Origin: Halichondria panicea
Taxonomy: Eukaryota; Porifera; Demospongiae; Suberitida; Halichondriidae
Length of the DNA stretch: 64,000 nt
Assembly: GCF_963675165.1 (NCBI RefSeq)
Contig: NC_087377.1
Coordinates: 9,441,122-9,505,121, forward strand
Reading direction: 5' to 3'
How positions within the stretch are numbered: the first letter of the stretch is position 1; every line of letters starts with the position of its first letter. The notes below the pieces were generated by a model that worked only from the letters and a program-made list of their open reading frames with translations, searched no databases and was not told where the DNA came from. The translations under genes were made by a program, and so were the position numbers. Shown one piece after another: positions 7,347 through 48,661 of this stretch.

Positions 7347-7509
7347 TTCTACAGCTAGTATAGCCTCAATCCCAGGCCGATCCGTCTCTAATTGAACACT
7401 AGGTCACCTCCTCGGCCTGGTATTGATTGTATCTGGGCGTGCATCTGGGCGTGACTTCGTTATTATTATTAAGTCCATGTGGTCAAATGAAAATTGAATA
7501 AAATTAATG

Positions 7510-7940: not shown

Positions 7941-8009
7941 TGTGATAGTGTTGTTGTAAATAAAATTATTTTTTTAGCTCACATTGATGGTCCACATAAT
8001 GCCAGTGCC

Positions 8010-8715: not shown

Positions 8716-8803
8716 TAGTATAGTAGCTAGCTAGCTTTACGGAGCTATTTATGAGATTACAATTACTTTTACGGAGTAGGTGCTCATACATACACCATTA
8801 GTG

Positions 8804-10373
8804 TTAGTCTCATGAATCAGCCGCCGTTCTTTTGGAACCACCGTCTGAGCACTCTTGTCATCGTTTTATGTGCCAAGACGGAATTCCGTCTTGACCAATC
8901 AAATTGCAGAACTCCAGTCAGGTGATGAACTTGGAGGCAGCAAAGAACTGCACTTTGCTCAACGCATTTGGATAATCATTACGCATGCATTACGCATGGT
9001 AAATACTTCATACATAGAAGCTGCTACGAAGCATAAGCAAGGCAAGCAGGGGTCCTTGGTAGCCTCGATCCCAGGCCGAGTTTTCGCTTTTATAACGGTT
9101 AGGCGAACAACTGGGCCTGGTACTAGTTGTCTGCGCATGCGTCAAATTTTCATTGTATATTTGTGGTCGGCAAAAATATTTAATAAATCAATAATGGAAA
9201 TTTGTACACAGAAAATGCACAGAGTGAGTACACAAAAGATGCACATAGGGAGCTGCTTCACAAAGGCCTGGGGAGTTGCCAGTTGTGCTGCAGCACAATT
9301 ACAGTGACCCAGGGCAACTTCAGGATGATTGAATGCCTTCAAATTACGTTTCAAAAAGATTTAGCAGGCTGCTGGACTTCTCTGATTCTAGGCCCCAACT
9401 CGTAACTCATTGCTTGAGAAAACGTAGATTCTCTTGATGTCTCTGAGCTACCCAGCAACGCTCGAATGAGCAGGTCATACTCCAGTCCTGTGTCTGTGAG
9501 TATAGGACAATATTAAAAGAAACCAAAGACGGTTAAACCCTTACCTCAAACTGTCCAGTCTCGTCCGTTAGTATAGCCAAGAGGAGCACTGTTGGGATAG
9601 CTGGATATTAGCCATTGCTCCTGTACAGAGAAGTAGACATTTTAAATACGTGTAGATCTATACATATTAAATTTCTCGGTTATAGTGTCATTGTCGACGA
9701 GCTGATGATGGCAGCACCAAGTTCTCTAGCTCACACTCTTCACTTGATTCACCATATTAATGATGAAACTATAGTCTACCTACATTCTTGCCAAACATGA
9801 ACAAGACTTGATAGCATAGCCGGCCATAGGGCCCACACAAAAATATCTGACCTTAACAAGCTTGACAAAGCTTTATACCTCTTCCCTTGTTGTTCAGTCT
9901 TCAGAATAAGCTTCAGAGAAGAGAGAAGCTTCAGCTAAGAGCCATTCCAATCTATTCCAATAATGATAAAACGGGAACTGACTTCTAGTACACGATAGTA
10001 CACGAATATAAATGTCACGAAAGTGAACGAGAATATCCATTCGTCAGAATCTGACAAACGACTGACGCATGCGCAGACAACTAGTACCAGGCCCAGTTGT
10101 TCGCCTAACCGTTATAAAAGCGAAAACTCGGCCTGGGATCGAGGCTAGGGTCCTTGGGCACAGATTAGCACCACAGCAAAACACAAGTGGAGAGAGATGC
10201 CTTCGCTTGGCGATTTGTATAACAATTAGGAAATATGTGTGGGCGTAAGATCACGATTTAATTACATTCCATTGGTTTTGTGAGCAATCAACATTCCATT
10301 TTGAAATGACTTCATGACAAGAGTGGTGCTCAGACGGTGGTTCCAAAAGAACGGCGGCTGATTCATGAGACTA
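8804..10373. mobile_element. 8-bp-TSD MITE nested in RecQ element copy 1
   Basis: Termini TAGTCTCATGAATCAGCC and complement; subterminal GTTCTTTTGGAACC palindrome. The target duplication CATTAGTG lies at 8796-8803 and 10374-10381; the sister element at 45885-45900 shows the unoccupied site. The full-length shorter copy is 39104-39571. The ORF beginning MSSFYVPRRN occurs in both copies because it lies in the conserved element end. Superfamily undetermined (hAT, Merlin, P and KDZ elements all make 8-bp duplications). Confidence 0.85.
9059..10148. mobile_element. TAGCCTCGAT-ended element nested inside the MITE
   Basis: Terminal inverted repeats of about 85 bp begin TAGCCTCGATCCCAGGCCGA and run into GAACAACTGGGCCTGG. 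The target duplication GGTCCTTG lies at 9051-9058 and 10149-10156; the MITE copy at 39340-39360 has the empty site. Its ends match the RecQ elements but the interior has no recognised gene. It contains a short internal repeat (ACACA-AAATGCACAG-like) near 9205-9250. Confidence 0.85.
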
Positions 10374-10537
10374 CATTAGTGTTAAGTCGCTCAGGAATTC
10401 GCTCTTTTTTAGCGAATACCTGAGCGAGGTGGAGCCAATAAGAGCACGCCCAGATACACGCCCAGATACAATCAATACCAGGCCGAGGAGGCGACCTAGC
10501 GTTCAATTAGAGACGGATCGGCCTGGGATCGAGGCTA

Positions 10538-28946: not shown

Positions 28947-31900
28947 TTATTTCTTGGAGGACCTCTTGGGCTTGTCCACGACAGTATAGATGACTCCAGA
29001 GGCAGTGGTCTCATGCTCAATTGTGTTGGGATCCTGGACAAAACAGTAGTGCAATAAAAAGCAGTCAGAGTAATATCAAAAGTTCATCCACTCCTGGTAA
29101 TTCATACCCAAGGCAGTATTCTCAAATGGTTTATCAAACAACCCTGTAATTGACTTATACCTGGAGTTTAAACTTGCAGTGAGTGCATGTACTTTACACA
29201 TACCTGATACAGAGCTTCTGGTGGAGTTGGCTTTGGTTTCTTGTTCTTCTTGCCCTTTCTATCGACCATGGCGTACTGGTCCTCAGTGCCTGGGGCTGAC
29301 TGGTGCTCAATGGATTTGGGGTCAGCATACAGGGAGTCAGCGGGAGGTAGGGGAGATGAGGTGCTTTCACTGTAGCAATCAAAGAACATTAATACATTCT
29401 GGTATAGGATAGGGTTAGAAGTACCGGCCAGAGCGGAACCCCAATATGCCACAACTCTTTAAACAGACATACACAGCTCACGTTAGTTTTTCAGCATTTC
29501 TTGGCTTTAACTTGCGATCCGAATCTAAAGCATAATTATAATCAAAACTAAAAAACATTTGCAATGTGAACGTTGCTAGGATTGCCAGGAAAAGAAAAGC
29601 GCGAAAAAGCGAAGAAACAAGAAATTCGGCGAGTGCATAACTCCAATCCGTTACAACTTCATTCACATGTACTGTTTCAATTTTTTGTTCGTTTTGTGCT
29701 TTTCCTGGCCAATCCTTCAGTAATTTTTATCATAATATAATTATAGTGAATTTTTTGCAAGATGTTTTACACACACAACTGCACTGTCAATCTTATGTAC
29801 AACCTACTGGTTGTACTAATTAAGTTGTGACTTACAGGGAAATTGCACAAGGAAAAGAACTAAACACAAGCAAAATGTTGTAATTGCAGATTATTATATG
29901 AAAGCATAATTATTTTACTACTCAAAAACGCAGCTCCTTTTACCTTGTTTGCAGTAACAAATGTAGAAGAGTATCCCAACACCGAAACAGAACAAGAACC
30001 CAAGGAGAACCACAGTCAAAATTGCCCAAAATTTCTCTGTAATGAAATTGAAATAGAAATCTTTCATCAATTCACTTACTTTCTGCGAGTCCGTTGAGAA
30101 GAGAGGTCAAGTATCGAGCTGTCAGCAATCCACAGACAATCCCAATTGCACAAGCCAGTGCCAGTATTACAAGAATGATCACCACAATCAGCCAAACAGA
30201 AACTGAAACAACTCAATCGTTATTATGACTACACGTTCATGCAAAGACAGCAACTTTGTAGTATAATAATTTATGTATACGCGTGACTTACATGTGCATG
30301 ATCTCAATCCAGTTGGTTCCCAAGTTCCATCAATGCAAGTGATTTGAGGCGAACCAATCAAATCATAGATAACCGAGGTACAGCTCAGAGTAGCAGTTGT
30401 GAGATGAGACACGTTACCGTTAGTTACATCTCCATTCAGCTGCATGGACAATCCACTGGCCATAAATAAAGAGAGGGCACTCATAGGGCATGCGTTAAAG
30501 TTGACATTGCTCTGAGTATCAACTATGGTTCCATCATACACGAGATTTGCGCGATAGCACAGATTAGTGGATGACGTGACAGGTACACAAGTCGACTGTG
30601 ACGTCAGTTGTACATTGGAGGTGCTGAAATCTGATGGACGCAAGTCTCGACATACACCAGATCCTTGTTCAAACTGGATGCTAAAGTCTTCATTTCGCTC
30701 AGAGGCACAGTTTTGACCAAGAGAGAATGTGAGGCAATTCATATTTTGTAGCGTACTGTCATCAATTACAAGCGCTCGAACTATACGATACAGTACAGGT
30801 ATAATGTAACAAAGCTCTCATCACAACAAATGGCATTTAGATCTTACCCATAATTTCAGCAGATACTTCACTGCTTGAATTTGCCGCATTCATGACAGTT
30901 ACAGTGAAAGTATACACATCATTCTCCACTGTGTTTGCGAGATGGTACATGTAGGATGAATCAGGAACAAACTCTGCATTCCCACTACGGCCACCAGCTG
31001 AAGTGAAAGTTATGTTTGGTGTATCAATTAGGGGCGGAGTCAACTGAACTGCTGAGTCACTGCTTCTCTGAACCTGTAATGTATGAATAATTATAATTAT
31101 ACAAGAGATCATTCACTTACTCCCTCCATCACACTCCATGATCCACTGATAGGTAGTGATGAATTGGAACAGTCAACGAATCCAGTCAACTGAGTCAGTA
31201 CAGGGGCTGAAAAATTAGCAATTGTATAATTATACAAACTCTGCATGGTGTTACTCACTTGTTATGTTGAAAATCACAGGAAAATCAATGCTACTACTGT
31301 TCAACACTCCTGGACACACAGCACTGGTAGCCACCACTCTGACTGTGTGAGACTCGGTGTAGCTTAATCCAGTCATAGTGATGCTGTTGTCAGTTACTTT
31401 CACTGAGCCACTGCCTTCAACCACACTGCCAAAAAATGTCACCCCTGTACCAAATGTCCCGTTACTGCTGACCAAAAGTGTGAATTGTCCAGTAGACTCA
31501 TCAACCACTGAGTATTCCATTTGATCAACAGTTGGAGTGGAAGGACCTGTATTATATACTATAGTTAAAGGCAAATAAGAAATTAATCGTATACACTGTG
31601 TTGATAACAGATTGCATGTACACGCAATTAGAGTGCTTGTACATGCATGCACGTGTGCAAGCAGCCACCTCACCTATATTAATTTGAATAGTCAAGTTCC
31701 TAACTTGAAGGTCGGGTGTACTAGACGCTCCAGCAAAACAAGTCACTACAGCACCATCCAGCGACTCAGTGATTAATAATTCAATAGTGGACCTCCTTGT
31801 TTGCTCAGTGCGTGAGCTGATCATACTAACAGTGAATGATCCACATAAACCTTCGCTATTTGGGGAGGCTGTGTGAGTGATAACAGTATCGCAGTCCATT

Positions 31901-32248
31901 GGTAGAGGAGGAGTGACCCTCCAACGAGTCAGGTCGACCCCATCATGAGAACAGGTGAGGCTGACGGTAGTGTTTGGACACACTTGGAGGAACTGATCAG
32001 TCACATTGCCACCACCGCTACTGACTTCTAAACTGCTTGCAGCCTCTAATTGTCACAAGTATTAACACAAGATTAATTAACTCCAGCATATTTATAGCTT
32101 GGTGATATAATATACTTACTACTGTACTATACTTACCTGTGCCTTTTTGATGAAGGCCTAACAGCAGGGCCAAGAAAACCTGCAAAACGAGCAAAGTCTT
32201 TGAAATGTAAAGTTTATGTAAACTTACATATACAGAGACAGAGCTCAT
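28947..32248 (-). CDS. Gene A: Ig/FN3/sushi receptor with two hydrophobic exons and tyrosine-rich tail
   Basis: Complete 12-exon model, 678 residues, all junctions in phase. Exons: 32228-32248, 32137-32179, 31674-32045, 31259-31546, 31121-31206, 30848-31073, 30292-30780, 30080-30202, 29944-30036, 29482-29524, 29204-29369, 28947-29033. Signal peptide from MSSVSVY plus VFLALLLG; Ig-like domain (VSLTCSH, LTRWRV, VVTCFAG); two FN3-like domains; a sushi-like module (ATLSC, ITCIDGTW); hydrophobic exon 8 (LIVVIILVILALA); hydrophobic exon 9 (FWAILTVVLLGFLFCF); then a tail with SLYADP, DQYAMV and GVIYTVV. The last fits an ITIM. It should be a plasma-membrane receptor with tyrosine-based signalling; ligand unknown. 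Exons 8 and 9 are both phase 1-1, so they could be alternatives. The intron before exon 10 holds a MITE copy (about 29535-29745). Confidence 0.85.
29535..29745. mobile_element. MITE copy in an intron of gene A
   Basis: Arms GCTAGGATTGCCAGGAAAAG and TTTTCCTGGCCAATCC flank a centre with CTCCAATCCGTTACAAC. Shortened relative of the foldback element at 5930-6455. It lies between exons 9 and 10 of gene A. Confidence 0.7.
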
Positions 32249-32277
32249 TCTCTTTCACTCACTGAGTTTCAGCAGAT

Positions 32278-32600
32278 TGACGCTCCAAATATGCGACACC
32301 CTCTCTTTTCCAATATTCTGACCTCTAAAAATAGCGACTGCAGCGTTCACAATTATTTTTTTATGTCGCGTCCTAAATAGAGGTCAAACCACAGCCTCGA
32401 TTCCAGGCCGCAAGAAACAATGTAATTTAAGCGGCCTATAATCGAGGACAGTAGAATCACCTCCAATTAGATGCGACCCTCTAAATATGCGACACCAGGA
32501 CTTCAACATAATTTTTCCAGGACTTCAACATAATTTTTCAACCTCCAAAGAAACGACCTCTGGCTTTGAAAGTGTCGCTATAAGCACTACTATCTATGCT
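32278..32600. mobile_element. Decayed MITE immediately upstream of gene A
   Basis: Shares ATATGCGACACC, TTTTTTATGTCGCG and CCTCTAAATA words with 22268-22577. It contains GCCTCGATTCCAGGCCGC, the end of the TAGCCTCGAT family. It starts about 30 bp before the gene A start codon and is absent upstream of A', so the two promoters differ. Confidence 0.6.
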
Positions 32601-33283
32601 TTATGTACGGTACATACAAAAATATACTATTCAGCCAAGTCAAAAGCCTGCAAGCGATTTTAGCACTCCATACTCTACTAGAGTAATTTACCAATGACCG
32701 GACACTAGCGGTTTTCGTACACTCTATCTCGATCTCGTGACCATCAAGATTCTACAGTGATTGTAGGGTATGTAAATGTAGCTACTGTATGTGCCTTGCT
32801 GCACAACCAACTATCAAGTCTCAATCGTGCTTGCTCTAGACATGCCAGCTCAAAATAAACGACATTCGGAACACACCATGATCGTACAACTCTAGCTGTC
32901 TTCGGACGGGGCTTTTTGTATAGCGCTAGCTAGGGCTTATCTAAGCTACTATGTATGGATAGAAAGACCAGGCCTTGGGCTGCAAGCACAAACAAAATCC
33001 AGCTCTCAACTCCTTCTAGTTTTGTCAAAAAAGCTGATACAAAATGCTAGGTATGCTTTTTACATTGCGGACACGTCCTCCTATCGAATGCCATTTTCCT
33101 GTCATGCGCAGTTTATACCACATGGCAAGGAGAGAGCAAGGAGTCGCCATTTAGTTTACAGTACAGATCAGCAACCATTTAATTACAGATCAGCATCTGT
33201 AAGTTAAATTACATTTTCAGCCATTTCTCTAACTGTTAATTGTGTGTTAATTGTTTGCAGGTGTGGAATGTATCCACTGTTAG

Positions 33284-34602
33284 AATAGGATCATAAGATC
33301 TTCAAAATCTGCTCATGTGGGCTCTCCCCAACCATCACAGCCTGTGAGGCCAGAAAAATATAAGAAATGGACCCAAGAACGGCTGAAGTTAGCATACGAT
33401 GCTGTTTTGAATGAAGAGTTAATAAGTATTCGCGAGGCAGCTGATGCGTTTGATGTTCCCAAGTCTACTCTTCATGACAGAGTATCCGGCAGAGTTCCGT
33501 TTGGTAAACTTAGTGGTTCTGTAAGATATTTGTCCGATGCGGAGGAAATGAATTTAATAAAGTTTATTAAACAGTCTGCCAAAATTGGTGCAGCTAAATC
33601 TAAGGCTGATGTCATTTCTATAGTACAGCGAGTGGTTGATGCAAAAGACATGAAAGTTAAAGTCACCAGTGGATGGTGGGAGTCCTTTAAAAGACGGCAT
33701 AAAAACGAAGTGTCTCTGCGTAAGGCTGAGCCGATCTCCTATGCCAGACTTGTTGCCAATAATCCGGATATTATCAATAATTACTTTGATTATTTGGAAG
33801 ATACTCTGCAGGAAAATGACCTTTTGGACAAGCCATGCCAAATTTTCAACTTTGATGAATCGGGATTTGCTTTGTCTCCTGCACCACCCAAAGTAGTGGC
33901 TGTGAAAGGTGCCAAGCATCCGTACACTGTCAACTCAGGGACAAACGCTCAGATCACAGTCTTGAGTTGTTGCTCGGCCGGTGGTACTAATATCCCTCCT
34001 CTGATTGTTTTGGCTACAAAAACTCTAAACCCTAAAATGGCAATTGGAGAGGTCCCTGGCACTGTATATAGCTCTTCTGATAATGGATGGATGACAACAG
34101 GGATATTGGACGAGTGGTTTGCCCAACACTTTTTGTTATATGCTCCTCCGGTTCGCCCTCTGCTTTTGCTCATGGATGGCCATTCTTCTCATTTTGGTCC
34201 TGCCTTTATTGAAACAGCTGTAGCCAATGACGTGATAGTGTTTTGTCTCCCTCCCAATACAACTCACTTTCTGCAACCACTGGATAATGGTCCATTTGGC
34301 CCACTATATAAAGAGGTACTGGAGGCAAGAATGCCATTCATTCTGCAACAGTAATCCAGGGAGAGTGGTAACGAAGCTACAATTCAACCAGCTTTTCAGC
34401 AGGGCATGGAGCCAGGGAATGACTATGCAGAACATTGCTGCAGGATTTCAACACGCTGGTGTCTATCCGTTCCGACGTCCAGAGGAAGAAGATTCCTCTA
34501 TACAGCGTTCCTCCTTAGCCAACAGTACCAACATTAGGTACCTGCCTTTTCATACTCCAAAACAGCGCAGAAGAATTAGACCATCTCATACTATTGTCAC
34601 TG
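33284..34602 (+). pseudogene. pogo/Tigger-like transposase (DDE_1), one frameshift
   Basis: Psq/CENP-B-type helix-turn-helix near the start (KWTQERLKLAYDAVL, then REAADAFDVPKSTLHDRV), a second DNA-binding block (WWESFKRRHK), and the catalytic core with FNFDESGF, LLLMDGHSSHFGP and PLDNGPFGPLYK giving the three acidic positions (D, D, D). Frame is lost near 34350, where LQQ runs into a stop. The adjacent frame continues NPGRVVTKLQFNQLFSRAW and GFQHAGVYPFRRP, the usual end of the family's core, to a donor at 34602. No ATG opens the frame at its 5' end; it is open from 33284, so the start probably lies in an earlier exon. Downstream exons add a repeated RGR segment and a PHD finger. Confidence 0.85.
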
Positions 34603-34649
34603 GTAAGAAATCTATATAGTGTAGCATTGCATTTACTGTGTCCTCTTAG

Positions 34650-34951
34650 TTGGCGAGGGCAGACGTGGTCGTACCACTGCCAGAGGAGGACTCCAGTCAG
34701 ATGATGAGTGTAAGAATATCTGAGTGTGTGTGTGTAGCATTGTATTCACTGTGTCTCCTTGTACACTAGTTGGCGAGGGCAGACGTGGTCGTACCACTGC
34801 CAGAGGAGGACTCCAGTCAGATGATGAGTGTAAGAATATCTGAGTGTGTGTGTGTGTAGCATTGTATTCACTGTGTCTCCTTGTACACTAGTTGGCGAGG
34901 GCAGGCGTGGTCGTACCACTGCCAGAGGAGGACTCCAGCCAGATGATGAGA
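34650..34951 (+). repeat. Triplicated 60-nt exon in the transposase gene
   Basis: Exons 34650-34709, 34770-34829 and 34892-34951 each encode GEGRRGRTTARGGLQSDDE, with the same phase (1-1) and near-identical introns, so the unit is about 120 bp. The GRRGR core is AT-hook-like. All copies can be spliced in or skipped without changing frame. Confidence 0.8.
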
Positions 34952-35029
34952 GTAAGAAATCTCTTGAGTGTTTATGTTTAGCAAGTTTTTTAATGCATGT
35001 ACTCTTCGTTTGTTAGCTATTGAACCGTT

Positions 35030-36520
35030 GCACATCAGTAATCAAGCTACTACTCAGGATTGTGTTGGTTAGTATATGTGGTAATATTGGTTTGTGAGTA
35101 TTCAGCTCTAGCGCATGTCTAGAATTACTGCATGTAATTTTTTTATTCATGCACACAGCTATACAAATGAAGAAATCTCGAGTTTGTTTAAATGCTCCGC
35201 GTTCTATAATCTTAAAAATTCTAGGGAATAGCTCATCAAGCTACAAGCCGCCCTCTGTAAAGAAGACTCTTCAGCTTAAAGATGTGCTTGTGACAGGTTC
35301 TGCTCGGAGAAAAGAATTGAAGGAAAAGCAGGTGATAAAAGATGCAAAAGCCAAAAAAAGCAGAAAAAGATGAGCTTAAGAAGCAGAAGTTATTGAAGAC
35401 CACAATTTCAGCTAGTCAAGCCAGTAAGTGTGTATGTTGCATGCTTCTTACATTCATCGTTATAATATATGTACAGTTACACTTAAAAAAGCTATACTTG
35501 ATATTTCATAACAATTTTAAAGGTACAATAATCTCGTTTTGATTGTCACTTACACATGCAATGTAACCTATACGTAGGTTCCCAACCATCTCAACCCAAA
35601 GGTTCCAAACCCAAGAAGGCAACTAAGAAAGGTACTAGTCTAATGTACAGTATACTAACAAATAATTATGCATGGGAGCAGTACGTTTTCTTCCCCTCAG
35701 CAGCTGCAGATGTAATACAGACATGTAGGTCACATTCAGTCAAAATTTAGGGGGTATACCTGTAACTTACGATGATTGATAGATAGCCACAGTTCGTAAC
35801 GCTCATCACGGTCACAGATATCATACCCTTCTTCGAATCTGATTTCAAACTTCTTACTTTCTTGCTCCGTGAATTTTTCATTAGACAACAATACTTGACC
35901 ATAAGGTATTTATAGAGAGAAAACACTTACCACAAGAATCAACACCAGGCTGAGTACGACTAGACCTACATGTTTGGTCAATGACACCTTTGCGGGCACC
36001 ACCTAAAATGACAAAACTTGGTTGTAGTTACATGTGCATAGTACACCAGTAATGGTGCATGTGTTAATATTATACACTATACTGTTCATTGTTATAATTA
36101 TGTGCATGCTGCCATTATACCTAATTCTACAGATCTAGATGCTACGTCACAAGAGCGAGACAAATGTAAGTTGTCGCAACTTCCAATAATTCCATGCATA
36201 CGTACCTATACGTAGGTTCCCAACCATCTCAACCCAAAGGTTCCAAACCCAAGAAGGCAACTAAGAGAGGTGCCGGTGGTACGTACGTGTACGTAGAGCT
36301 ATGCATATAGCTATGTTTATTGATATACGTGTATATGCAAAATGCATATATTATGTAAGCAGTGGGCTCTATTAGAAGTCATGGTGTATATCACATTCAT
36401 GCAAGCAGATTATTATAATAGTGTTTTAAATCTTTGCCTTTCCACTGGCACAGATGCTGCAGTACCGAAAGGCTCTGTTGGGAATCCAGATGCTGCAGTA
36501 CCGAAAGGCTCTGTTGGGAA
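35030..36520 (+). CDS. Basic linker exons of the transposase gene, some duplicated
   Basis: Short lysine-rich exons between the core and the PHD finger: about 35155-35380 (KKSRVCLNAPRS, then KELKEKQVIKDAKAKKS), 35579-35631 and 36216-36270 (both SQPSQPKGSKPKKATK, duplicates 640 bp apart), and about 36454-36522 (DAAVPKGSVGNP twice in tandem). The exon near 35380 shows a frame change, so the chain is probably not fully functional. The repetitive, lysine-rich character suggests a flexible nucleic-acid-binding linker. Confidence 0.5.
35771..36002 (-). CDS. Minus-strand coding-like segment inside the pogo-like element
   Basis: Two minus-strand blocks have splice signals. 35931-36002 (acceptor ...cattttag, donor gtaagtg) reads GGARKGVIDQTCRSSRTQPG. 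35771-35893 reads SNEKFTEQESKKFEIRFEEG followed by YDICDRDERYELWLSINH and a gtaagt donor. The second resembles a short conserved segment (RYEEGYDL...RYxxWL) that I associate with predicted proteins of invertebrate transposons; that is memory, not a search. It may be a second element gene or a nested relic. Confidence 0.45.
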
Positions 36521-36613
36521 TCGTAAGTTGCTCATTAATTTTGTGTTTAACAAGTAAACTGTTTCTGTTTCTGTATGCACATTGATAACCATCTTCTACA
36601 TTTTGTTTCCTAG

Positions 36614-36740
36614 TCCTCAGTCAAGGAAATGGGTGAAGTGCGATTCCTGTAACGAATGGTACCACTGTTTGTGTGCGAAAATTAGCAGCAAAACAGCAGA
36701 GACAAAGTCATATGTTTTCAATTGTGTTTTATGCAAGTGA
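36614..36740 (+). CDS. Terminal PHD-finger exon of the transposase gene
   Basis: After acceptor ...ttcctag the frame reads KWVKCDSCNEWYHCLCAKIS and, after a short spacer, FNCVLCK-stop. Cys-x2-Cys, Trp-Tyr-His-x2-Cys and the final Cys-x2-Cys fit the second half of a PHD finger, a histone-tail reader. The first zinc ligands would lie in the preceding exon, which I could not fix. This suggests chromatin-guided targeting of the element. Confidence 0.65.
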
Positions 36741-37154
36741 TGATTGAGTTTTTTGTTTGTTTGATGAGAAATTTGTTGTATATTAAAGCTAAAAAGCTGG
36801 TGAAACTCCGTAATTTCCAAGTGTATAGTTGATAATGGGCGTGTCCGCAATGTAAAAAGCATACCTAGTGTTTTGTATCAAATTTTTTGACAAAAGTAGA
36901 AGAGGTTGAGAGCTGAATTTTGTTTGTGCTTGCAGCCCAAGGCCTGGCCTTTCTATCCATACATAGTAGCTTAGATAAGTCCTAGCTAGCGCTATATAAA
37001 AAGCCCCGTCCGAAGACAGCTAGAGTTGTACGATCATGGTGTGTTCCGAATGTCGTTTATTTTGAGCTGGCATGTCTAGAGCAAGCACGATTGAGACTTG
37101 ATAGTTGGTTGTGCAGCAGAGCACATACAGTAGCTACATTTTCATACCCTACAA

Positions 37155-37700
37155 CAGGGCCGTAGCCACCAACTTTAGAGTGGTCAGGTTGTTATGAAAT
37201 GGAACAAATCGGCACGCTATGCGAGCCAAATTTTTTTGTCACGCCCATTTCCGGTATCGTTGGTAACGCCCCTTCTCTACTGGCTATCTGCTGTACTAGA
37301 TTCTGTTCAGCTTTAAAGCTTAGCCCTAACACAAATGTTACAGAACACAACATCTTGATTCTTATCATGATGGAGAAACAGCAAAGTTGTAATGGCAAGA
37401 CCACAGAACTGGTTTGGACTTTCCAAATGATCGCTTGGGGAACAAAAAATGGTTAGCTGGATGGTGAGCTTGGTCTGGAAGACTTGGAAGGGATTCTCTC
37501 TCGCCATAGCAATGATAGCATGTAGACTAATAGTCTTGATCACTTATAGTTCTAGCATGCTTGCATGTTTTGCACTGCAGAAGAAGTTCACTGCATTTTT
37601 TGTCAATTATGTGTTTACTGTAGTGACGACCATTGCCTATTAACTTCGAAAAAGTGGTCCGGTTGAAACCTGACTAACCGGACTGGTGGCTACGGCCCTG
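37155..37700. mobile_element. 546-bp element nested in the right TIR of the pogo-like transposon
   Basis: Termini CAGGGCCGTAGCCACC and its complement. The left TIR shows the unbroken sequence. TACAA flanks both sides (with two extra bases at the right), suggesting a 5-bp target duplication. ORFs inside match nothing known to me. Confidence 0.8.
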
Positions 37701-38030
37701 GTTACAATCACTGTAGAATCTTGATGGTCATGAGATAGAGTGTACGAAAACCGCTAGTGTCCGATCATTGGTAAATTACTCTAGTATAATTAGAGTAAGT
37801 AACCTATCTTCGCCAGATACCTATAATCGGCGGCTATTGCTCGAAGCACAAGACGATTTTGCACAAAACTAACTACATGGACCTACAGATGGGTAAGAAA
37901 GTAACAGCTCCCAAAAATTTGGAAAGAATAACTCGCTTGCGGACGGAGTGGTGGTCATGAGAATTGAGCTGCCGAATTGATCAATTGTCGTCTGTGAGAC
38001 ATTTATCTCCGTCTTTGCACGCTTATTATT

Positions 38031-38785
38031 ATTATTATTATTATTATGTGAACTTTACAGCTATGCACAAAAGAAAGTAAGTGAAAATTATTGGGTGAGA
38101 GGAAATAGCTGACAGACTTACTCCAACATTGGAGCAGCTGATGTATATTATATAATCTATAGAGTGATAAGTATAGTTAACAGAGGATCCTATATATGAC
38201 ATTTAGAGCATGGGCAAACCATATGAAATGAACATAAGTTATTTGTGTCAAAGTTTTCTAGAAAATCTGACACTAAAAAGTCCGAAGTCTTTTTCTTGAT
38301 TGTTCCTAGAGATGAATCTAGATTTATTAAATTCGACGGCAATTTATTCCATACTTTTGCAATTCTAATGAAGTAGAAGTGTCTTGAATAGTTATTTCTA
38401 GCAAATTTAATTTGAAGGGAATGGCCTGAGCAGCCTGCCCTGGTTTTGGATGAAGTGAAAGATACTAGTTCTCTTATATCGTCCGACTGCTGCTGCATAC
38501 ATTTCACAATAAACATGATATCTTGCAGTTCAAACCATCTCATGAGGGGCAATAACTTTAATTTGCAGAGTCTTGCTTTGTAGTCTGATACATAATCATT
38601 AAGGATATATTTTGTGGCTCTGCGTTGCACTTTTTCTAGTGACTTGATATCCTTTATTAATTTAGGTCTCCACAACTGCGAGCAATATGTTAAGTGAGTT
38701 CTGACAAGAGACAGATATAATTGTTTCTGTTTCAATTAGTTGAATAGTTTGTTGGAATGATCCTTCTAATAAGATTATTAAGTAC
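38031..38785 (-). mobile_element. 5'-truncated LINE (non-LTR retrotransposon) fragment
   Basis: A minus-strand ORF (38190-38735) encodes the C-terminal end of a LINE reverse-transcriptase protein: SLVRTHLTYCSQLWRP, SLEKVQRRATKYIL, and FFIRIAKVWNKLP-like text (reads FYFIRIAKVWNKLPSNLI). The 3' tail is a (TAA)n run at about 38024-38046. It interrupts the left arm of the A/A' duplication; the right arm is unbroken near 40470. CR1/Jockey-type by its C-terminal motif. Confidence 0.8.
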
Positions 38786-39103
38786 TGAAACTACCAGCAC
38801 TAAACAACTCTAACTAGTGAGCACTACTTGCAGGCAAAGCAGCGTTAGCTGCAGATCGAGCCCCACCCAGCTAGGCATGACAAATATTTTGCAAAAAATA
38901 ATGCTGATTCAGCAACAATTGTGCACAGTCAGCAATAATTAAAGGGATTAGCCTCGATTCCAGGCCGCACTGAAGATTATGTGCATAATAATTATTATTG
39001 CTGAATCAGCATTATTTTTTGCAAAATATTCGTCATGCCTAGCTGGGTGGGGCTTAGCCTCGACTCCAGCCCCTTGAATAGTGGGGCTCGATCTGCAGCT
39101 AAC

Positions 39104-39571
39104 GTAGTCTCATGAATCAGCCGCCGTTCTTTTGGAACCACCGTCTGAGCACTCTTGTCATCGTTTTATGTGCCAAGACGGAATTCCGTCTTGACCAATC
39201 AAATTGCAGAAGTCCAGTCAGGTGATGAACTTGGAGGCAGCAAAGAACTGCACTTTGCTCAACGCATTTGGATAATCATTACGCATGCATTACGCATGGT
39301 AAACACTTCATACATAGAAGCTGCTACGAAGCATAAGCAAGGCAAGCAGGGGTCCTTGGGCACAGATTTAGCACCACAGCAAAACACAAGTAGAGAGAGA
39401 TGCCTTCGCTTGGCAATTTGTATAACAATTAGGAAATATGTGTGGGCGTAAGATCACGAATTTAATTACATTCCATTGGTTTTGTGAGCAATCAACATTC
39501 CATTTTGAAATGACTTCATGACAAGAGTGCTCAGACGGTTCCAAAAGAACGGCGGCTGATTCATGAGACTA
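39104..39571. mobile_element. 8-bp-TSD MITE, full-length copy
   Basis: Termini TAGTCTCATGAATCAGCCGC and complement. Target duplication CAGCTAAC lies at 39096-39103 and 39572-39579. It is the uninterrupted relative of 8804-10373. The ORF MSSFYVPRRN inside is not supported as a gene. Confidence 0.88.
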
Positions 39572-39579
39572 CAGCTAAC

Positions 39580-40383
39580 GTAGCCTCGGTCCCAGGCCGA
39601 TTTTTTTTTAATAGAACGAAGTTGAAAAACACGGCCTGGTATTGATTGTATCTGGGCGTGGCAGGAACAGGAAACAAAAGCAGAGATTCTTTACATTTTG
39701 TTTCCTGCTTTTTTTCTGTAATACTAAAGGTGTACGTAGAGGCATTTTACTCCCGTAAAAGTTACAGTAATTTAGCTCCGTGTCATGTTCTCAATTTATA
39801 GCTAGCTAGCTATGGCATGCAACACATTGTCTTGTTTGAAGCAAGATGGCCTCACTCTCATGGCAGAACAGGCCCAGGCTCTCAAGCTCCTGTTTGAGGG
39901 AAGGGACGTGTTTATCTGGTTCCCAACAGGGTATGGCAAGTCTCTCTGCTATATCAGTTGCTACCCTTTTTAATGGACTACAAGCTAGGTAGGACCAAGG
40001 CTCCTCCTGTTGACAAAAGTGTTGTTCTTGTTAATTGTCTCTCCCCTTGTATCTCTCATCATGAGACTCATGATTGACCAGATCAGGAGTCTAAACAATA
40101 GAGGTGTTTCTGCTGCCATCCTCAGTAGCAATAAAGGAATCGACAAAGATTTGGTTGCCACTGCCAAAGAAGTGTCTTCTGGGAAGTATTTCCTGCTGTA
40201 TACTGCCCCAGAGGCTGTTGTTGAAGACCACTGTTGGAGGATTCATTTTTTGTTGTACCACAAGTCAATTTGTTTTTATGTATTAAAAAACCACGCCCAG
40301 ATCACGCCCAAATACAATCAATACCAGGCCTAGTAGGCGACCTAGCGTTCAATTGGAGACGGATCGGCCTGGGGTCGAGGCTA
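39580..40383 (+). mobile_element. RecQ-carrying element, copy 3 (diverged, short)
   Basis: Left end TAGCCTCGGTCCCAGGCCGA, right end complement of TAGCCTCGACCCCAGG, with subterminal GGCCTGGTATTGATTG. It sits directly against the preceding MITE; CAGCTAAC occurs at 39572-39579 and again at 40384-40391. A plus-strand RecQ-like fragment starts at 39812: MACNTLSCLKQDGLTLMAEQ, then FIWFPTGYGKSLCY (motif I), frame breaks, and LLYTAPEAVVED. It diverges from copies 1 and 2 and has no ZAD part. Confidence 0.82.
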
Positions 40384-40850
40384 CAGCTAACGCTGCTTTG
40401 CCTGCAAATAGTGCTCACTAGTTAGAGTTGTGCCAAGAAGTATTGTTTAGTGCTGGTAGTTTCAGTACTTAGTAAGCGTGCAAAGACGGAGATAAATGTC
40501 TCACTGACGATAATTGATCAATTCGGCAGCTCACTTCTCATGACCACCACTCCGTCCGCAAGCGAGTTATTCTTTCCAAATTTTTGGGAGCTGTTACTTT
40601 CTTACTCATCTGTAGGTCCATGTAGTTAGTTTTGTGCAAAATCCTCTTGTGCTTTGAGCAATAGCCGCCGATTATAGGTATCTGGCGAAGATTGGTTACT
40701 TACTCTATAGTAAAATAATGATGCCAGAAGCAATGAGCGATTTTAAGCGTATTCATGAGATTATTTATTACTTGCTATACTGGGTAGATCTACATGTACA
40801 AGAGATCAATTGCAATCGTCAATCTGCTGAAACTCAGTGAGTGAAAGAGA

Positions 40851-43800
40851 ATGAGCTCTGTCTCTGTATATGTAAGTTTACATAAACTTTACATTTCAAA
40901 GACTTTGCTCGTTTTGCAGGTTTTCTTGGCCCTGCTGTTAGGCCTTCATCAAAAAGGCACAGGTAAGTATAGTACAGTAGTAAGTATATTATATCACCAA
41001 GCTATAAATATGCTGGAGTTAATTAATCTTGTGTTAATATTTGTGACAATTAGAGGCTGCAAGCAGTTTAGAAGTCAGTAGCGGTGGTGGCAATGTGACT
41101 GATCAGTTCCTCCAAGTGTGTCCAAACACTATCGTCAGCCTCACCTGTTCTCATGATGGGGTCGACCTGACTCGTTGGAGGGTCACTCCTCCTCTACCAA
41201 TGGACTGCGATACTGTTATTACTCGCACAGCCTCCCCAAATAGCGAAGGTTTATGTGGATCATTCACTATTAGTATGATCAGCTCACGCACCGAGCAAAC
41301 AAGGAGGTCTACTATTGAATTATTAATCACTGAGTCGCTGGATGGTGCTGTAGTGACTTGTTTTGCTGGAGCGTCTAGTACACCCAACCTTCAAGTTAGG
41401 AACTTGACTATTCAAATTAATATAGGTGAGGTGTACGTAAATGCATGCACATGCACTTTATTAAATTACATTTGCATGTACAATATATAGAACCTCGATT
41501 ATCCTGACAGATTAACCTGACACCTTAAGCTCCGTTTACACGAGGCCTTTAATCCGGTATCATAAAATTTTAGGCCCCCCATGAGATTGGGCCCCCCCCG
41601 GGCCTAGAATTTTAACATTTTAGGCCCCCTCTTAAAATTTTTGGCCCCCCATTAACAGCACAACAGCGGTAATATTATGTGACAGTGCATTCTCAAAATA
41701 CACCAATACAGTCTTCTATGGTCTTCACAGTCTATGCAGTGCCAGTTACTGAATGCAGCTCTCCTCACACACACACATTTCATGCATGTACAGTAGTATA
41801 TACCACTGGTCTCACAGCCATCACACTGCACCATGTCATTCTATGAATCAGGCCTCATGCAGCACGAAGCACATAGGTGCCAACTGTCCCGAATTGATCA
41901 GGACTGTCCAAGATTACCCTTGTTCTGAAAGGAAACTGCTATTGTGATTCCACCATGATACAACAGTTTCTCTCTTGACTTCTATCTGTGATTCCACATT
42001 ACTTGAGAGCTGAGCCAGTGATGCTATTGGGGCATCCCCACAACAATTTACATCTTCTATGTATAGGAAAACATGGAGGAAGATATGAATTGTTGTCTTT
42101 GCACTGAAATTGTGTGTTTTATACTTTTTTGTCCTGAAATTTGGCTGAGAAAGTAAGCACGAAGTTGCAAATAATTATGGCGATAGCTACACTGTTAAAA
42201 ATGGTGTGTTAATTAACACGCATTTAGTGTGCTCGTTGCACTGTTTAAGTTTAACACACTGAGATGTGTTGATCAACACACACTCTGGAGTGTGTTAATC
42301 AACACTGGTGGTAGTGTGCTCACATGACATGCATATAAGTGTTTACATAGCATGCACTGTATAGGTAATGTGCTCACATGACATGCATATAAGTGTTACA
42401 AGTACATCACATTGTCATAGCAACAAGAGACATTGCATTGATACAGCATACTTCAAATTAAATGATTAACAGTGAACGAAGTAAAACATCCTATGACTAA
42501 TCTATCTAAGAAAGTGTACAAAATAGTTACATCGTTTGGTACCCTCTGCATGTTTGATTTCTGCTCCCTCGCAAAGATTTGACAACATTAACAGCGCTCC
42601 ACCTATAATAGAAAATTATTATTCCTGAATAACAGAATTAATTTCTCACCTAAACAGCAGCGTTACAATCAGCTTCAGAGTGATTGACGTCCAACTTTAT
42701 GACGGACCTTTTTTCTATGTACATAAAACAAGACATGGCTGTAATTAATTAATCACTAGTTCATTCTTACCTTTTGTGCTGATGACTTGATACTTCTGCT
42801 CTCCTTTAGAGCAAAGAACAGCACGGTGTGAAGGGACTTAACTTGACAAAAACCTCATAATTATATTATCTATAGAAGATTAACATCTTTACAATTTAAA
42901 AACTCACCTAAACAGTAGCATCACAACAGCTTTAGAGTGGCTGGAAATTGACCTTCAACTTAATGCCCGTTTGTTTCTACATGAGCACAGTTATTTACCA
43001 TAATTGCAATTAATAAGTTCACTCTTACTTTATGACTTGAAAACTTCTCTTCCCCTTGAACTCTGAATGCATAGAACAGTACGGGTCTAAAGACTTCTCA
43101 AAGGATCAGGACTAGACTTGGTAGTGGACTTGATCAAAAAGAAAAGCAGCTGCTCTGAAGATTGCTACGGCAACTGCACTGCTGCGCATGCGCATTCTAT
43201 AATTAGTTTATCTGTTCTATAATTAGATAGCAGGAAAATTGATCATGTGATCCAGAGCCAGTGGCCACATGGTACAAGATGAGACAGAGAATGCAGCAGT
43301 AGTCTTTCCAGGCTGCTCTGAGAGCCAAGAGAACAGCAGGATATACTAAAGATAAGTTAAAAAGTTGATATATTCAGTATGCAAATTCTCTCAAGCCCCC
43401 ATTGTCAATTTTATACACTGGACCAAGCTATATATAATATTATATGAACTGATTTTCTCTTAGCTGGCTCCCATTTGTTATAGCAGCATTGAAATGTAGT
43501 ATTATTACACCACTGTACTCATACTCATATAATTCTCTGTGCAGGTGCAGCTGGCTGTGGTTTACTCACAAGATTAACTGCTATAGTAACTTGAAACCTT
43601 TAATATGTTTTTGTTTAATGGTTATCCATAAAAGTTTGTTGCGTAGATATTTGTTGTTATCGATTATAAGTTTTATAATTGTGACATAATCTCTGGGCTG
43701 TTTTGCCTGTACAGTGGTGTAAAAAGCATAGTGTGTATGAATTACAGTTGGGCCTAGGGTATCAGTGTGTTCCTTTACGTGAAGTGTGTGTGTTACGTTA

Positions 43801-46800
43801 CACACTACTCAGTTGGTGTGTTCTGTTAACCCACTTCGTGTGTTAGTGAACACTGGGGTGCTCATTAACACACACTGACATTCACCAATAAAATTTAGTG
43901 TGTTGATTAACACCCCGTTTTTAACAGTGTATACAACAACATCGATTGTCTTACAGGCAGATCCAACATTGCAGAGCTGCATCAAAGCTCTTATAGGTAA
44001 AGCGCATGAGTAACTTGAAAGGTAAATCTTCCTTCACTTTGATAGAATAATAATGCAAACATTTTTGCTACTTTGATACAGAGTCTTTGCATGCATGCAG
44101 TCTCTTTGATGCTTTGTCAACTAATAGAGCTAACCTTACCATATTATTATATCTCTTTGACTTCGTTCTATCGTGCAGAAAAGGATAGCAGAAGAGGGGG
44201 GCCTAGAATGTTAACAGTTTGGACCCCCTGGGGGGCCTAAACTGTTAACATTCTAGGCCCGGGGGGCCCAAAATTTTAAAATTCTAGGCCCGGGGGGGCC
44301 TAAACATGGGGGGGCCCAAAATTTTATGACACCGGGTTGGAATCCGGATTAAACCTAACCGCGTTCGTGTAAAAGGCCCTTATCCGGTTCTAATCCGGAT
44401 TAGCCAACCCACCTTTGGAGGTGGTTCAGATTGTGTCAGAAGCGGTTTAGCTGTGAGTTAGCCTCGATCCCAGGCCGATCTGTCTCTAATTGAACGCTAG
44501 GTCGCCTCCTCGGCCTGGTATTGATTGTATCTGGGCGTGACTTCGTTATTATTATTAAGTCCATGTGGTCAAATGAAAATTGAATAAAATTAATGATGGC
44601 TTCTAAGTTTGTTCTTTGTAGGTTATGTTACAGCACTGATGCCATACAAAACAGAAGATATAAACATTTGTTCAGCAGTAAGGCTCTCAAAGAAGATATT
44701 CCAGGGAGGCTCAGTCTTGCATTGGATCTGCCTGTTAGTGATTCAGATGGCCTGTCAAAGATTGTCTGTCTTTCAAGAAGATAGAGTCCATAGAGGTGTT
44801 CAGGCTCCTGGCCAGACGTAGCTACCAGAAACAAGTGTCCAAAGAGCAGCTCCCTAGTAGTCCAGTAAGATCAGCCCCTAAGAAAAGGACTAAGGACACG
44901 AGTGGTTCCGATGCATCTCCTTTCACTGTGAGCTCGCGTCCATCAGCAAAGAGGAGTACCATCGGGGTTTGAGGAAAAAGGCTTGCTTTTACTCCTGCAC
45001 AAAGTAGGAAATTTTTAATGTGACAGTGTTGTAAATAAAATTATTTTTTTAGCTCACATTGATGGTCCACATAATGCCAGTGCCTCGACATAATCTGCAA
45101 TCGCTGTGGAGCTAGAGGGTAGGTCAGAAACTATCCAGTTTGCAGCCAACATTGGAGCACCAGGAGGGGCAAATGCTCTAAGCTCACCTAGGTGTGCATA
45201 GGCAGGACGAAAGTCAGAGCTCCTACAGAACATACATAATAATCACAACGGGAGTTATTAATAACTTGCCACTTGTAAACACAGTGTGCTTCGTCCACAG
45301 CTATTGCCACTAAAGAGGAATTGAGTGGAGGCTCTAGTAATAGCATCCTCCAACGATAGTCTTCAACAACAGCCTCTGGGGCAGTGAACAGCAGACGGTA
45401 CTTTCCATCCGACACATCTTTGTTAGTGGCAACAAGACTTCTGTCGATTCCCTTATTTAATACTACTGAGGATGGCAGCAGAAACACCTCTAGTGTTTAG
45501 ACTCCTGACCTGGTCAATCATGAGAGACACAAGGGGAGAGATGACAAGAACGGACATCCACAAGAACTACACTTCTGGCGACAAGAGGACCCTTAGTCCT
45601 ACCAAGCTTGTAGTCCATCAAGAAGGGTAGCAATTGATAGCACAGAGACTTGCCATACCCAGTTGGGAACCACACAAAAACGTCCCTTCCTTCTGACAGG
45701 AGCTTGAGAGCACGGACCTGCTTTCCTTGAGGATCAGTCCTTCTTGCTTCACACAAGACAGAGCATATGCTAATGCTTCTTGGATATCAAAAGACGTTGA
45801 AATTGCCATAGTATAGTAGCTAGCTAGCTTTACGGAGCTATTCATGAGATTACAATTATTTTTACGGAGTAGGTGCTCATACATACACCATTAGTGTTAA
45901 GTCGCTCAGGAATTCGCTCTTTTTTAGCGAATACCTGAGCGAGGTGGAGCCAATAAGAGCACGCTCAGATACACGCCCAGATACAATCAATACCAGGCCG
46001 AGGAGGCGACCTAGCGTTCAATTAGAGACGGATCGGCCTGGGATCGAGGCTAGCTGTGAGTAAGCACAAATGGCTAATTCTGAGGTGTTGTACATGTTCG
46101 TGGGTGTTTCTAGAGTAAGCCTGTAGCTTCCTATCAGTCCAATGTTTACGCAAATGAAATTAATGGTCATTTTACTATGCCCACTACTCAGAAAAATCTG
46201 ACCCGGATTCGACCCGGATTAGGTGTCGTGTAAACGGGGCTTTAGTTCCAGCTGAGGCAGGCCGGATAATCGAATGGATAAACTATGTCTTGATCCACTC
46301 AAATGGGCATCTGCGCATGCGATAACATGCCTGTGTCTATGGTAATAGCTGTTAAGTGTGCATGCATGTGAGTTATCAACATAGGTGTAAATGTATTTGC
46401 CTTTAACTACAGTATACCGGCCATTTGGTTTGGCACAGATTGCTAGCTAGATGTTTACTACACAAAAAACTTACCCTGAAATGCGGCCACTCGCTATTCT
46501 GTATACCAGTTTTGGCTGCCCTAAACTAGGTTTTAATGTACGTTTAATATGGCTGTTTTGGGTGAAATTAGATTACACGGAAATAGAGAGCATAAATTCA
46601 TGCTTCATTATCCAGACAGAACCGCCAAATTAGTCATTATGTGGATACGGTATATATAAAGCTGACTGCATGTGTATTTGCATTCCAGACGTAACTGCTC
46701 AACGGTTGACTGCATGTGTATTTGCATTCCAGACGTAACTGCTCAACGGTTGCATGCAACGAAAACTATAAGCTTTTCTAGTCATGTTCTCTTGGATTTT

Positions 46801-48661
46801 GAGTGATTCGTGGATTTGCAAACTAACTTTGTTCTCCAGTTATTTACTTACAGTGAGTTGCAGTTCGCACAGTTTCTATTCACCTTATGAGTTAGCCTTG
46901 CACTCAAGCACTAGCTTTTTGTTAGCTACAAGAGTCAGAAAAGAGCTACAAAGCTGCTGCCAGAGCTATTATGAACTTTAACCTATTGCGGATACACCCT
47001 TCTTGAGATCCTGAGACAGAATACAATTTCATGCATGGGCAATAATACAATATCCTTTTGTCTCACTACTGTCACAGGCCCTCCTTCCACTCCAACTATT
47101 GACGGTATGGAGTATTCAGTGGTCGACTCACCTACCGGACAATTCAGATTCTTGGCAAGCAGTAGCGGAACATTTAGGACAGGGGTCATTATTTCTGCCA
47201 GTGTAGTCGGAGGCAGTGGCTCAGTGGTTGTTACTGACAACAATATTATTGTGATTGGACTGAGCTACACCGGGTCTCACACAGTCAGTATTGTGGCTAC
47301 CAGTGCTGTGTGTCCAGGAGTGCTGAACAGCAGCGTCACTGTTGTTTCTGTGGTGTTTAACATAAGAAGTGAGTAGAACACCAGACTGAGAGTTTGTATT
47401 CTTTACAGTAGCTAATTTTCAGCCCCTGTACTGACTCAACCCACTGGATCCGTTGACTGTTCTAATCCATCGCTGCCAATCAGTGGATCATGGAGTGTGG
47501 TGGAAGGCGTAAGGGAATGATCTCTTACAGTACATGACTGTCCAATTATGGATGTATACACATCACTCACAGGTTCAGAGCAGCAATAACTCGGCAGTTC
47601 AGTTAGCTCCTCCCCCAATTGGTACACCAACCATAACCTTTACTTCTTCAGCAAGGGGTCTCAGTGGCAGTGCAGTCTTTGTTCCTGATTCATCCTACCA
47701 GCTCACAGACACAGTGGAGAATGATGTGTTCACTTTCACTGTGACTGTGACTAATGCGGCTGGATCAAGCAGTGAAATGTCTGCTGCAGTTGAGGGTAAG
47801 CTTTTTATTTCTTCTTTTGCTGTGATGAAAACCTCTTTGATGCCCATCTTGCATACAAGCACTGTATTATTATATAGTTACCCCGTTCATCGTTGATGAG
47901 AGTACGCTGGAAACAATGAATTGCCTCACATTCTCTCTCAGTCAAAACTGTGCCTCTGAGCAGAGTGGAAACTTTGTCATCAAGTTTGAACAAAGAAATG
48001 GTGTTTGTCGAGACTTGGTTCTATCAGATTTCAGCACATCCACCATACAACTGATGCCTCAGTCGGCTTGCGCATACGTGGCTTCATCCACTAACCTGTG
48101 TTATCGTGCAACTCTGATGTATAATGGAATAATAACTGACACTCAGACTAATCTCAACTTTGCTGCGTGTCCTATAAGTGTTCTTAATTCTTTCCTGGCA
48201 GATGGTGTTTCCTACCAGCTTGACGGAGAAGTCACTAGCGGCAACGTGTCTCACCGTACAACTGCTACTTTAAGCTGTACTGAAACTTTTGCTTCAGTAT
48301 CTGGAGCAGCTGTGGTGACATGTGTTGACGGTCAGTGGAACAACATGGGCATACAGTGGTGTTCTAGATCATGTGCAGGTAAACATTACAATGTCATATT
48401 AATTTAATTATGTGCTTTTCAGAAACTACTGCCATATCTGTAATCGTGACTTTCCTGCTGACCCTGGCTCTAGGAATCTCCATTGGTGTCCTCTTTGTGT
48501 TAGCAGTGAACAAGTACAGGAAGTCTGAGAAGGTGACTCTGCAAACTGAAACTGAAATGGGACAACCACCAGTCGCAATATACGAGGACCTGGATGTCGT
48601 TAAACCTGACCCTCGTACTCAGGGAAACCTTGCTTATGGACATGTACATGCAGTTAGTTAG
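40851..48661 (+). CDS. Gene A': Ig/FN3/sushi receptor with ITIM-like tail, giant intron
   Basis: Complete 8-exon model, 591 residues, every junction in phase: 40851-40871, 40920-40962, 41054-41425, 47078-47368, 47423-47508, 47573-47795, 47878-48378, 48423-48661. Signal peptide and Ig domain are almost identical to gene A. The FN3-like and sushi-like parts are only about two-thirds identical. A single transmembrane segment (ISVIVTFLLTLALGISIGVL) is followed by KYRKSEK, AIYEDLDVVKPD and NLAYGHV. LAYGHV fits the ITIM consensus; YEDL is a YxxL motif. The tail resembles that of gene D, not A. Intron 3 is 5.65 kb against 127 bp in A, because of nested transposons. No frame breaks, so it may still work if the intron is spliced. 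Confidence 0.85.
41558..44331. mobile_element. GGCCCCCC-rich element, third layer
   Basis: TATCATAAAATTTTAGGCCC at the left pairs with GGGCCCAAAATTTTATGACA at the right, flanked by CCGG. Both ends carry further GGCCCCCC/TAGAATTTTAA units. It contains the next nested element at 42190-43929. No coding content recognised. Confidence 0.65.
42190..43929. mobile_element. TA-flanked element with CACTGTTAAAAA ends, innermost layer
   Basis: CACTGTTAAAAATGGTGTGT at the left and its near complement at the right; TA on both sides. Subterminal blocks repeat GTGTGTTAATCAACAC-type inverted words. 1740 bp with no recognised transposase, so a non-autonomous Tc1/mariner-type element. Confidence 0.78.
44593..45000 (+). 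pseudogene. ZAD-like zinc-finger fragment in transposon copy 2
   Basis: Reads ASKFVLCRLCYSTDAIQNRR through LSLALDLPVSDSDGL in one frame, including the first CxxC. A 7-nt deletion near 44775 removes the second CxxC and breaks the frame. The remaining basic serine-rich tail matches copy 1. Same caution on the ZAD assignment. Confidence 0.5.
45060..45810 (-). pseudogene. RecQ-like helicase fragment in transposon copy 2
   Basis: Reading leftward: MAISTSFDIQEALAYAL, FPTGYGKSLCYQLLPF (motif I), LFTAPEAVVEDYRW, VAIAVDEAHCVYKW (motif II). An apparent small intron follows (donor after CAAGTGG, acceptor ...tctgtag before GAGCTCTGAC), then DFRPAYAHLGELRAFAPPG and PMLAANW near motif III. An insertion around 45455 and 45550 breaks frame. 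The C-terminal half of the helicase is missing. Confidence 0.72.
46663..46752. repeat. Tandem duplication, 45-bp unit
   Basis: GACTGCATGTGTATTTGCAT occurs at 46663 and 46708, each copy continuing to GCTCAACGGTT. Two copies, nearly identical. In intron 3 of gene A', upstream of exon 4. Confidence 0.85.

Follow-up and report, generated by a model that had tools for sequence, protein, structure and literature searches.

What does the mirror image around two receptor-like genes of a sponge record? In a stretch of 64,000 nucleotides from the demosponge Halichondria panicea (contig NC_087377.1, hereafter C1, positions 9441122-9505121; assembly of 131 Mb in 39 contigs), which we call the window, the predicted genes A (28947..32248, minus strand) and A' (40851..48661, plus strand) stand head to head, and each carries an immunoglobulin (Ig) exon behind its signal-peptide exons. 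An earlier note on this DNA had placed the two genes on a large head-to-head palindrome with datable insertions. Self comparison of the window confirmed the inverted matches and the insertions as real; they do not, however, form one datable palindrome. As a whole, the data are best explained by an old divergent gene pair that was duplicated as a unit, by later copying of the Ig exon within pairs and by a palindromic repeat at the centre, a reading we hold to be likely.

The inverted matches of the window fell into three classes: a 617-bp gene block, a central part (37791-40707) and the outer exons. The gene block (31666-32282 inverted against 40817-41433) comprised the leader, two signal-peptide exons, the Ig exon and introns and was 98.7% identical, with 8 substitutions and no gap; as had been claimed, A and A' are indeed paralogues in head-to-head order whose signal-peptide and Ig exons are nearly identical. 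The outer exons (30378-31545 inverted against 47082-48280) were 75.9% identical. DNA and protein searches located close Ig exons in 10 genes, all at C1 9.40-10.04 Mb. Eight of these genes form four head-to-head pairs, designated Y (9406.7-/9407.9+ kb), W (the pair in the window, 9472.8-/9482.2+ kb), Z (9589.8-/9606.6+ kb) and X (10036.6-/10037.6+ kb), where - and + denote the left and the right gene, so that A is W- and A' is W+; the two remaining genes, S1+ and S2+, are single. Within pairs W, X and Y, respectively, identity was 98.1%, 88.7% and 94.8% for the Ig exon, 79.1%, 80.9% and 88.3% for segment F1, 81.5%, 81.6% and 84.9% for segment F2, 71.0%, 71.2% and 75.8% for the CCP-like exon, and 46.5%, 37.3% and 48.5% for the tail. 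Between genes on the same side, the CCP-like exon was 83.6-88.4% identical among W+, X+ and Y+ and 76.8-82.9% among W-, X- and Y-, the tail 67.4-88.1% and 67.6-87.9%, and the Ig exon 69.9-84.3%. When same-side identity was subtracted from within-pair identity in W, X and Y, the difference accordingly ran from +17.1 for Ig through +4.2 for F1, -1.3 for F2 and -10.3 for CCP to -29.0 for the tail, and zero lay outside its bootstrap range for all segments except F2.

Trees and synonymous divergence (dS) directly supported this incongruence between exons. In the Ig tree, W-/W+ and Y-/Y+ each received 100/100 support and both tested side groupings were rejected (approximately unbiased test, p-AU 1.8e-7 and 1.6e-7); in the CCP and tail trees, the within-pair groupings were rejected in all six tests (p 3e-5 or less). 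The dS of the Ig exon within W, X and Y was 0.024, 0.167 and 0.043, and that of the CCP-like exon 0.686, 0.495 and 0.523, compared with 0.211-0.301 among plus genes and 0.309-0.476 among minus genes for the latter exon. The split between the sides is therefore older than that between W, X and Y, and the common ancestor of the Ig exons in one pair is later. Because the CCP-like exon and tail of W, X and Y are alike by side and the Ig exon is alike by pair, the pair must be old and its Ig exon homogenised later within pairs; the presence of the divergent pair in at least three copies (W, X and Y) indicates that it was duplicated as a unit. Within-pair homogenisation is most simply gene conversion. 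The side-specific tails followed the same arrangement: an A-type tail was found on the left gene in 4/4 pairs (56-100% to A) and an A'-type tail on the right gene of W, X and Y (59-100%), with shorter, partial matches to the A' type (47-67%) in Z+, S1+ and S2+.

The direction and limits of the last copying event in W could be traced from the flanks. The upstream region of the block in A (31666..32282, minus strand) is minus-type, and that of the block in A' (40817..41433, plus strand) resembles X-, Y- and Z-, not X+ or Y+. These sequences identify A as the donor and A' as the recipient; the copied tract measures 617 bp or more and took the place of the signal-peptide region native to A'. When window 38000-47500 was searched by blastn with 820 bp from upstream of the Ig exons of X+ and Y+, no plus-type signal-peptide exon was found to be left over in the right arm; E values below 0.005 were confined to the opposite strand at about 40.9-41.1 kb, and these matches are read as exons of the minus partners contained in the 820-bp queries. 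In X and Y, the homogenised tract was confined to the Ig exon and both native upstream regions were retained; the tract limits in Y coincide with the exon edges, and the likeness in X also stops near them. Thus highly similar N-terminal domains in neighbouring genes, a mark of paired receptors, were present in W, X and Y, and similarity kept by recombination and confined to the binding region, a further mark, in W and Y, with a weaker case in X.

Both W genes consist of exons with open reading frames, and their models are predictions from sequence. For A', GT was present at 5/5 donors and AG at 4/4 acceptors among those tested; its exons are the signal-peptide exons (40851-40871 and 40920-40962), the Ig exon (41054-41425), F1 (47078-47368), F2 (47573-47795), the CCP-like exon (about 47868-48379) and an exon with transmembrane (TM) segment and tail (about 48422-48661). 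The signal-peptide exons (32228-32248 and 32137-32179) and the Ig exon (31674-32045) of A were mirrored from A' through the ungapped 617-bp match, and its other edges were set by motif look-up with GT/AG: F1 (31259-31546), F2 (30848-31073), the CCP-like exon (about 30292-30790, acceptor provisional), two candidate TM exons (30080-30202 and 29944-30036), a tail exon (29204-29369) and a last exon with stop (28947-29033). The two candidate TM exons are consecutive (29943-30202) and perhaps alternatives. A profile of 18 Ig members matched V domains of antibody light chains and of T-cell receptor alpha (best E 0.00041), by which the N-terminal domain of the family is identified as a putative V-like Ig domain. 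Pfam ig gave a weak match in 3 of the 18 members (best E 0.0054) and Pfam Sushi a weak, sub-cut-off match to the CCP-like exon of A' (E 0.0021); in Pfam, no Sushi match was found for that of A and no match for F1, and F2 had sub-threshold matches only. The predicted structures were too poor for a fold search, with a mean predicted local distance difference test score (pLDDT) of 45.8 for Ig (four window sequences) and 28.9 for the CCP-like exon (two). The cytoplasmic tails carry different motifs, YADP, YAMV and VIYTVV in A and IYEDL and LAYGHV in A'. We take VIYTVV and LAYGHV, read by eye, to fit the consensus of the immunoreceptor tyrosine-based inhibitory motif (ITIM); no activation counterpart (ITAM) was seen by eye in either W tail.

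Several observations weigh against the copying of Ig exons within old pairs or limit its reach. Segment F2 showed no signal in either direction. In the best Ig tree, X- and X+ had no clade to themselves, the W pair being placed within it, although an exclusive X clade was not rejected (p 0.066). The CCP dS of the minus genes to Y- (0.475 and 0.476) was hardly under the within-pair value of Y (0.523). The Ig exons of pair Z were only 84.1% alike, and Z+ was closer to S1+ (99.7%) and S2+ (88.8%); moreover, stops are present in X-, Z+ and S2+, and X- and Z+ are broken genes. A related Ig cluster of the same layout served as control; 16 of its exons were taken from C1 12.85-12.98 Mb and a further 4 from 11.29-11.39 Mb. 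Among them were five adjacent divergent pairs, four of which were 69.9-73.7% alike within the pair; in three of these four, both members had same-side relatives at 94-99%, and the fifth pair was 90.3% alike, with other relatives of each member at 90-91%. Since this cluster is mostly unhomogenised, a divergent layout is not in itself enough to homogenise the Ig exon. Finally, both W tails hold an ITIM-like stretch, so opposite signalling is not indicated.

Most of the mirror DNA between A and A' has a different origin. The stretch 37789..40709, about 850 bp without its insertions, pairs 37791-38028 with 40470-40707 (inverted, 96.6%) and 38775-38863 with 40371-40475 (inverted, 80% with gaps) around a self-inverted centre at 38859-39054. 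Genome searches returned at least 85 matches for the centre (38840-39108; 40 of 156 candidates scored) and at least 41 for 40470-40860 (40 of 93 candidates scored), and 39 of these 41, one being the window's own left arm, stop at query position 236-251, near 40709. All four fetched copies were self-inverted end to end, over 836-864 bp at 87-93%, as expected of a foldback element or miniature inverted-repeat transposable element. Because the genome copies are many and those fetched are self-inverted, the central stretch belongs to a dispersed palindromic repeat, of which it is a single copy, later split by insertions. TA stood at or beside the ends in the repeat copies inspected, and these ends resemble, by eye only, those of the neighbouring DDE_1 transposon. 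When the four fetched copies were compared, the left arm in the window was 99.2% identical to the corresponding left arm on contig C6, and the right arm 98.7% to its counterpart, also a right arm, in the C14 copy. As each arm is nearer to these than to its own partner, the difference between the arms probably predates the landing of this copy, and dating by the divergence of the central arms was rejected on the same figures. The mirror DNA between the genes is mostly a dispersed element and no record of gene duplication.

The insertions in and beside this repeat can be read on the same terms. The left arm contains a LINE-like (long interspersed nuclear element-like) 3' fragment with a (TTA)n run (38029..38774, minus strand), and the right-arm counterpart near 40470 is uninterrupted, as the earlier note described, with flanks that match on both sides; the LINE label is our presumption from the appearance of the open reading frame (ORF) at 38190-38735, which had no Pfam match. 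The right arm carries a terminal-inverted-repeat element (39105..39571) flanked by CAGCTAACG and, stacked on the same 9-bp target, a second such element, with helicase-like fragments (39581..40383). CAGCTAACG thus occurs three times on the right (39096, 39572 and 40384) against one CGTTAGCTG (inverted) at 38843 on the left, so that the claim of a single left target copy stands with its length corrected from 8 to 9 bp. DNA related to the first element lies at 8805-10375; for the second, a related copy at 8334-8693 has a match to DEAD helicase (E 1.5e-9). Window positions 7361-10537, 39105-40383 and 44459-46052 have in common element DNA of helicase-like and zf-AD-like character (up to 99%), and 39105-40383 comprises two short derivatives, stacked.

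Adjoining the repeat on the left is a DNA transposon (32676..37786, plus strand) that ends in long terminal inverted repeats and contains a transposase ORF (DDE_1 E 5.8e-20, HTH_psq E 8.7e-10). A 546-bp insert (37155-37700), whose ends are 17-bp perfect terminal inverted repeats (CAGGGCCGTAGCCACCA), splits its right terminal repeat. A lone TA near 40710 had been taken for an empty site; of the flanks of the transposon, only the right one matches there, and the palindromic repeat itself ends at about 40707-40709. On the other side of the site, 393 bp on the left (32283-32675) face 109 bp on the right (40708-40816), and the final 117 of the 393 bp had no similarity to these 109 bp (score 13, shuffle mean 18.8). 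Another dispersed repeat (32279..32571; at least 63 genome matches, 40 of 734 candidates scored) abuts the converted block in the left arm. The order of events in the gene duplication was therefore not readable as proposed: the insertions are situated within the repeat or beside it, outside the gene arms, and can be ordered relative to their host repeat only.

We weighed these data against four other accounts. A recent inverted duplication of the whole gene, leaving one large palindrome dated by insertions in its arms, draws on inverted matches that extend from 30.4 to 48.3 kb round one centre and on arm-specific insertions with empty counterparts. Neither uniform arm identity nor a single-copy centre was found, however: the centre and inner arms belong to a genome-dispersed repeat, whose left arm is closer to the C6 arm than to its own partner, where the Ig exon ends, identity falls from 98.7% to 75.9%, and the tails are unrelated within the pair and common to the same side across pairs. 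This account is very improbable, and we place an assembly artefact, by which two haplotypes or a fold-back read were joined head to head, on the same low level. Identity of 98.7% is within the allelic divergence of some outbred invertebrates, which would suit an artefact, but the insertions differ by side, the outer exons and the tails diverge as described, and three further head-to-head pairs lie on the same contig.

More room, though still little, must be left for a fusion, in which one rearrangement joined a new inverted 5' end of A (leader, signal peptide and Ig exon) before the old body of A'. The W tract passes beyond homology into the signal-peptide region, where the plus-side genes are unrelated, its upstream end lies in dissimilar DNA, and the Ig-to-F1 intron measures 5.65 kb in A' versus 0.12 kb in A. 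Against this, no second A' Ig exon is left over between 41.4 and 47.1 kb, so that replacement, not addition, is needed for A'; and X and Y, homogenised in the Ig exon only with their native upstream regions kept, fit homology-guided copying and are left unexplained by a fusion, which we consider unlikely. Least credible of all is purifying selection that holds the Ig exons of a pair alike with no copying. It could appeal to the likeness in X and Y, which stops near the exon edges, yet synonymous sites are equally alike (in W and Y), Ig exons diverge freely between pairs, and protein selection does not explain the W block because its introns and leader share the same identity. Gene conversion within an old, duplicated pair thus accounts best for the locus.

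For its history we propose that an old divergent pair with different tails was duplicated as a unit to give W, X and Y, that a break was then likely repaired with the inverted neighbour as template, which would copy the Ig exon to the partner, and that the copied exon may have been retained by selection, with one ligand read by both receptors and with different outputs. Selection would keep matched exons because matched recognition combined with different signalling is useful, a reason suggested by analogy with SIGLEC11/SIGLEC16 and the Xenopus ceacam genes. It is conceivable, though we would sooner doubt than accept it, that the locus is a non-bilaterian array of paired immune-type receptors evolved independently of those of vertebrates, in which head-to-head genes would combine a conversion-matched V-like binding domain with tails of two classes, opposite in effect, and would serve allorecognition or decoy microbes.

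Related exons extend beyond the four pairs. Tail exons of either class recur in other parts of C1; counting the query places themselves, there were 12 matches to the tail of A and 33 to that of A'. The region C1 8.6-12.99 Mb, including window positions 326-1013 and 54641-56478, is rich in matches to Ig and tail exons (40 Ig and 33 + 12 tail among those listed). Both tail classes are also found distant from this Ig type, as if reused on other ectodomains. A possible further pair at 8945083-/8953730+ was set aside, its plus side being an A-type tail with two weak F1-like scraps and its minus Ig a fragment. C1:9601630-9610463 and 9427108-9436000 form a large direct duplication with Z+ and S1+, 95.6% identical across 3.8 kb over the genes, in which S1+ is open and Z+ broken. 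A near-perfect 39-bp hairpin (C1:10037203-10037241) lies between the pair X genes, and C1:5280527-5280718 is a nuclear copy of a piece of mitochondrial cox1 with two TGA codons. This cox1-like fragment reads with TGA as Trp; its best solved relative was 7jro, a plant chain (91.5 bits), and the bovine entry 1occ scored 76.9 bits, which, taken with the appearance of cox1 in sponges and cnidarians, hints at a non-bilaterian animal, perhaps a sponge.

These results show that a transposon can lie behind the mirror image round a gene pair, and that the identity of arms can date conversion rather than duplication. If the same mosaic holds in several pairs of one non-bilaterian cluster, the design arises independently, and the W, X and Y genes are named candidates for testing recognition in such animals. 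Clustered Ig-superfamily genes of an early-branching animal make up the Hydractinia Alr allorecognition complex. Our literature search, which covered few subscription journals, found no invertebrate pair of Ig receptors with conversion-matched binding exons. In Botryllus, the FF and FcoR genes of the fuhc locus are likewise adjacent invertebrate receptor pairs with Ig and sushi domains and tails with tyrosine motifs, but the FF members, in which no signalling domains are known, pair with co-receptors; gene conversion is not named in the available portion of that paper (PMC12065747).

Conversion-matched binding domains with different tails are, from the available parts of two reports, a pattern already known in vertebrates (PMC5701461, PMC5112662). 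According to the first, primate SIGLEC11 and SIGLEC16 stand head to head, about 9 kb apart in human, and have undergone repeated gene conversion over the upstream region and the first exons, including the V-set exon, while later exons follow paralogy (PMC5701461). A and A' share with them the head-to-head order, a converted 5' region and different tails. The siglecs, however, bind sialic acid, their tails contrast an ITIM with an adaptor-coupled partner, and they share expression (PMC5701461), whereas the sponge genes belong to an Ig/CCP-like family unrelated to siglecs and come in several pairs in one cluster. In Xenopus ceacam genes, as far as the accessible text of the second report goes, conversion is confined to the ligand-binding N exon, just including the splice sites, and the pair members are opposite in orientation with different tails, a pattern that Y matches closely; their tails set ITIM against ITAM or ITAM-like motifs (PMC5112662), whereas in the sponge an ITIM-like stretch is found in both W tails.

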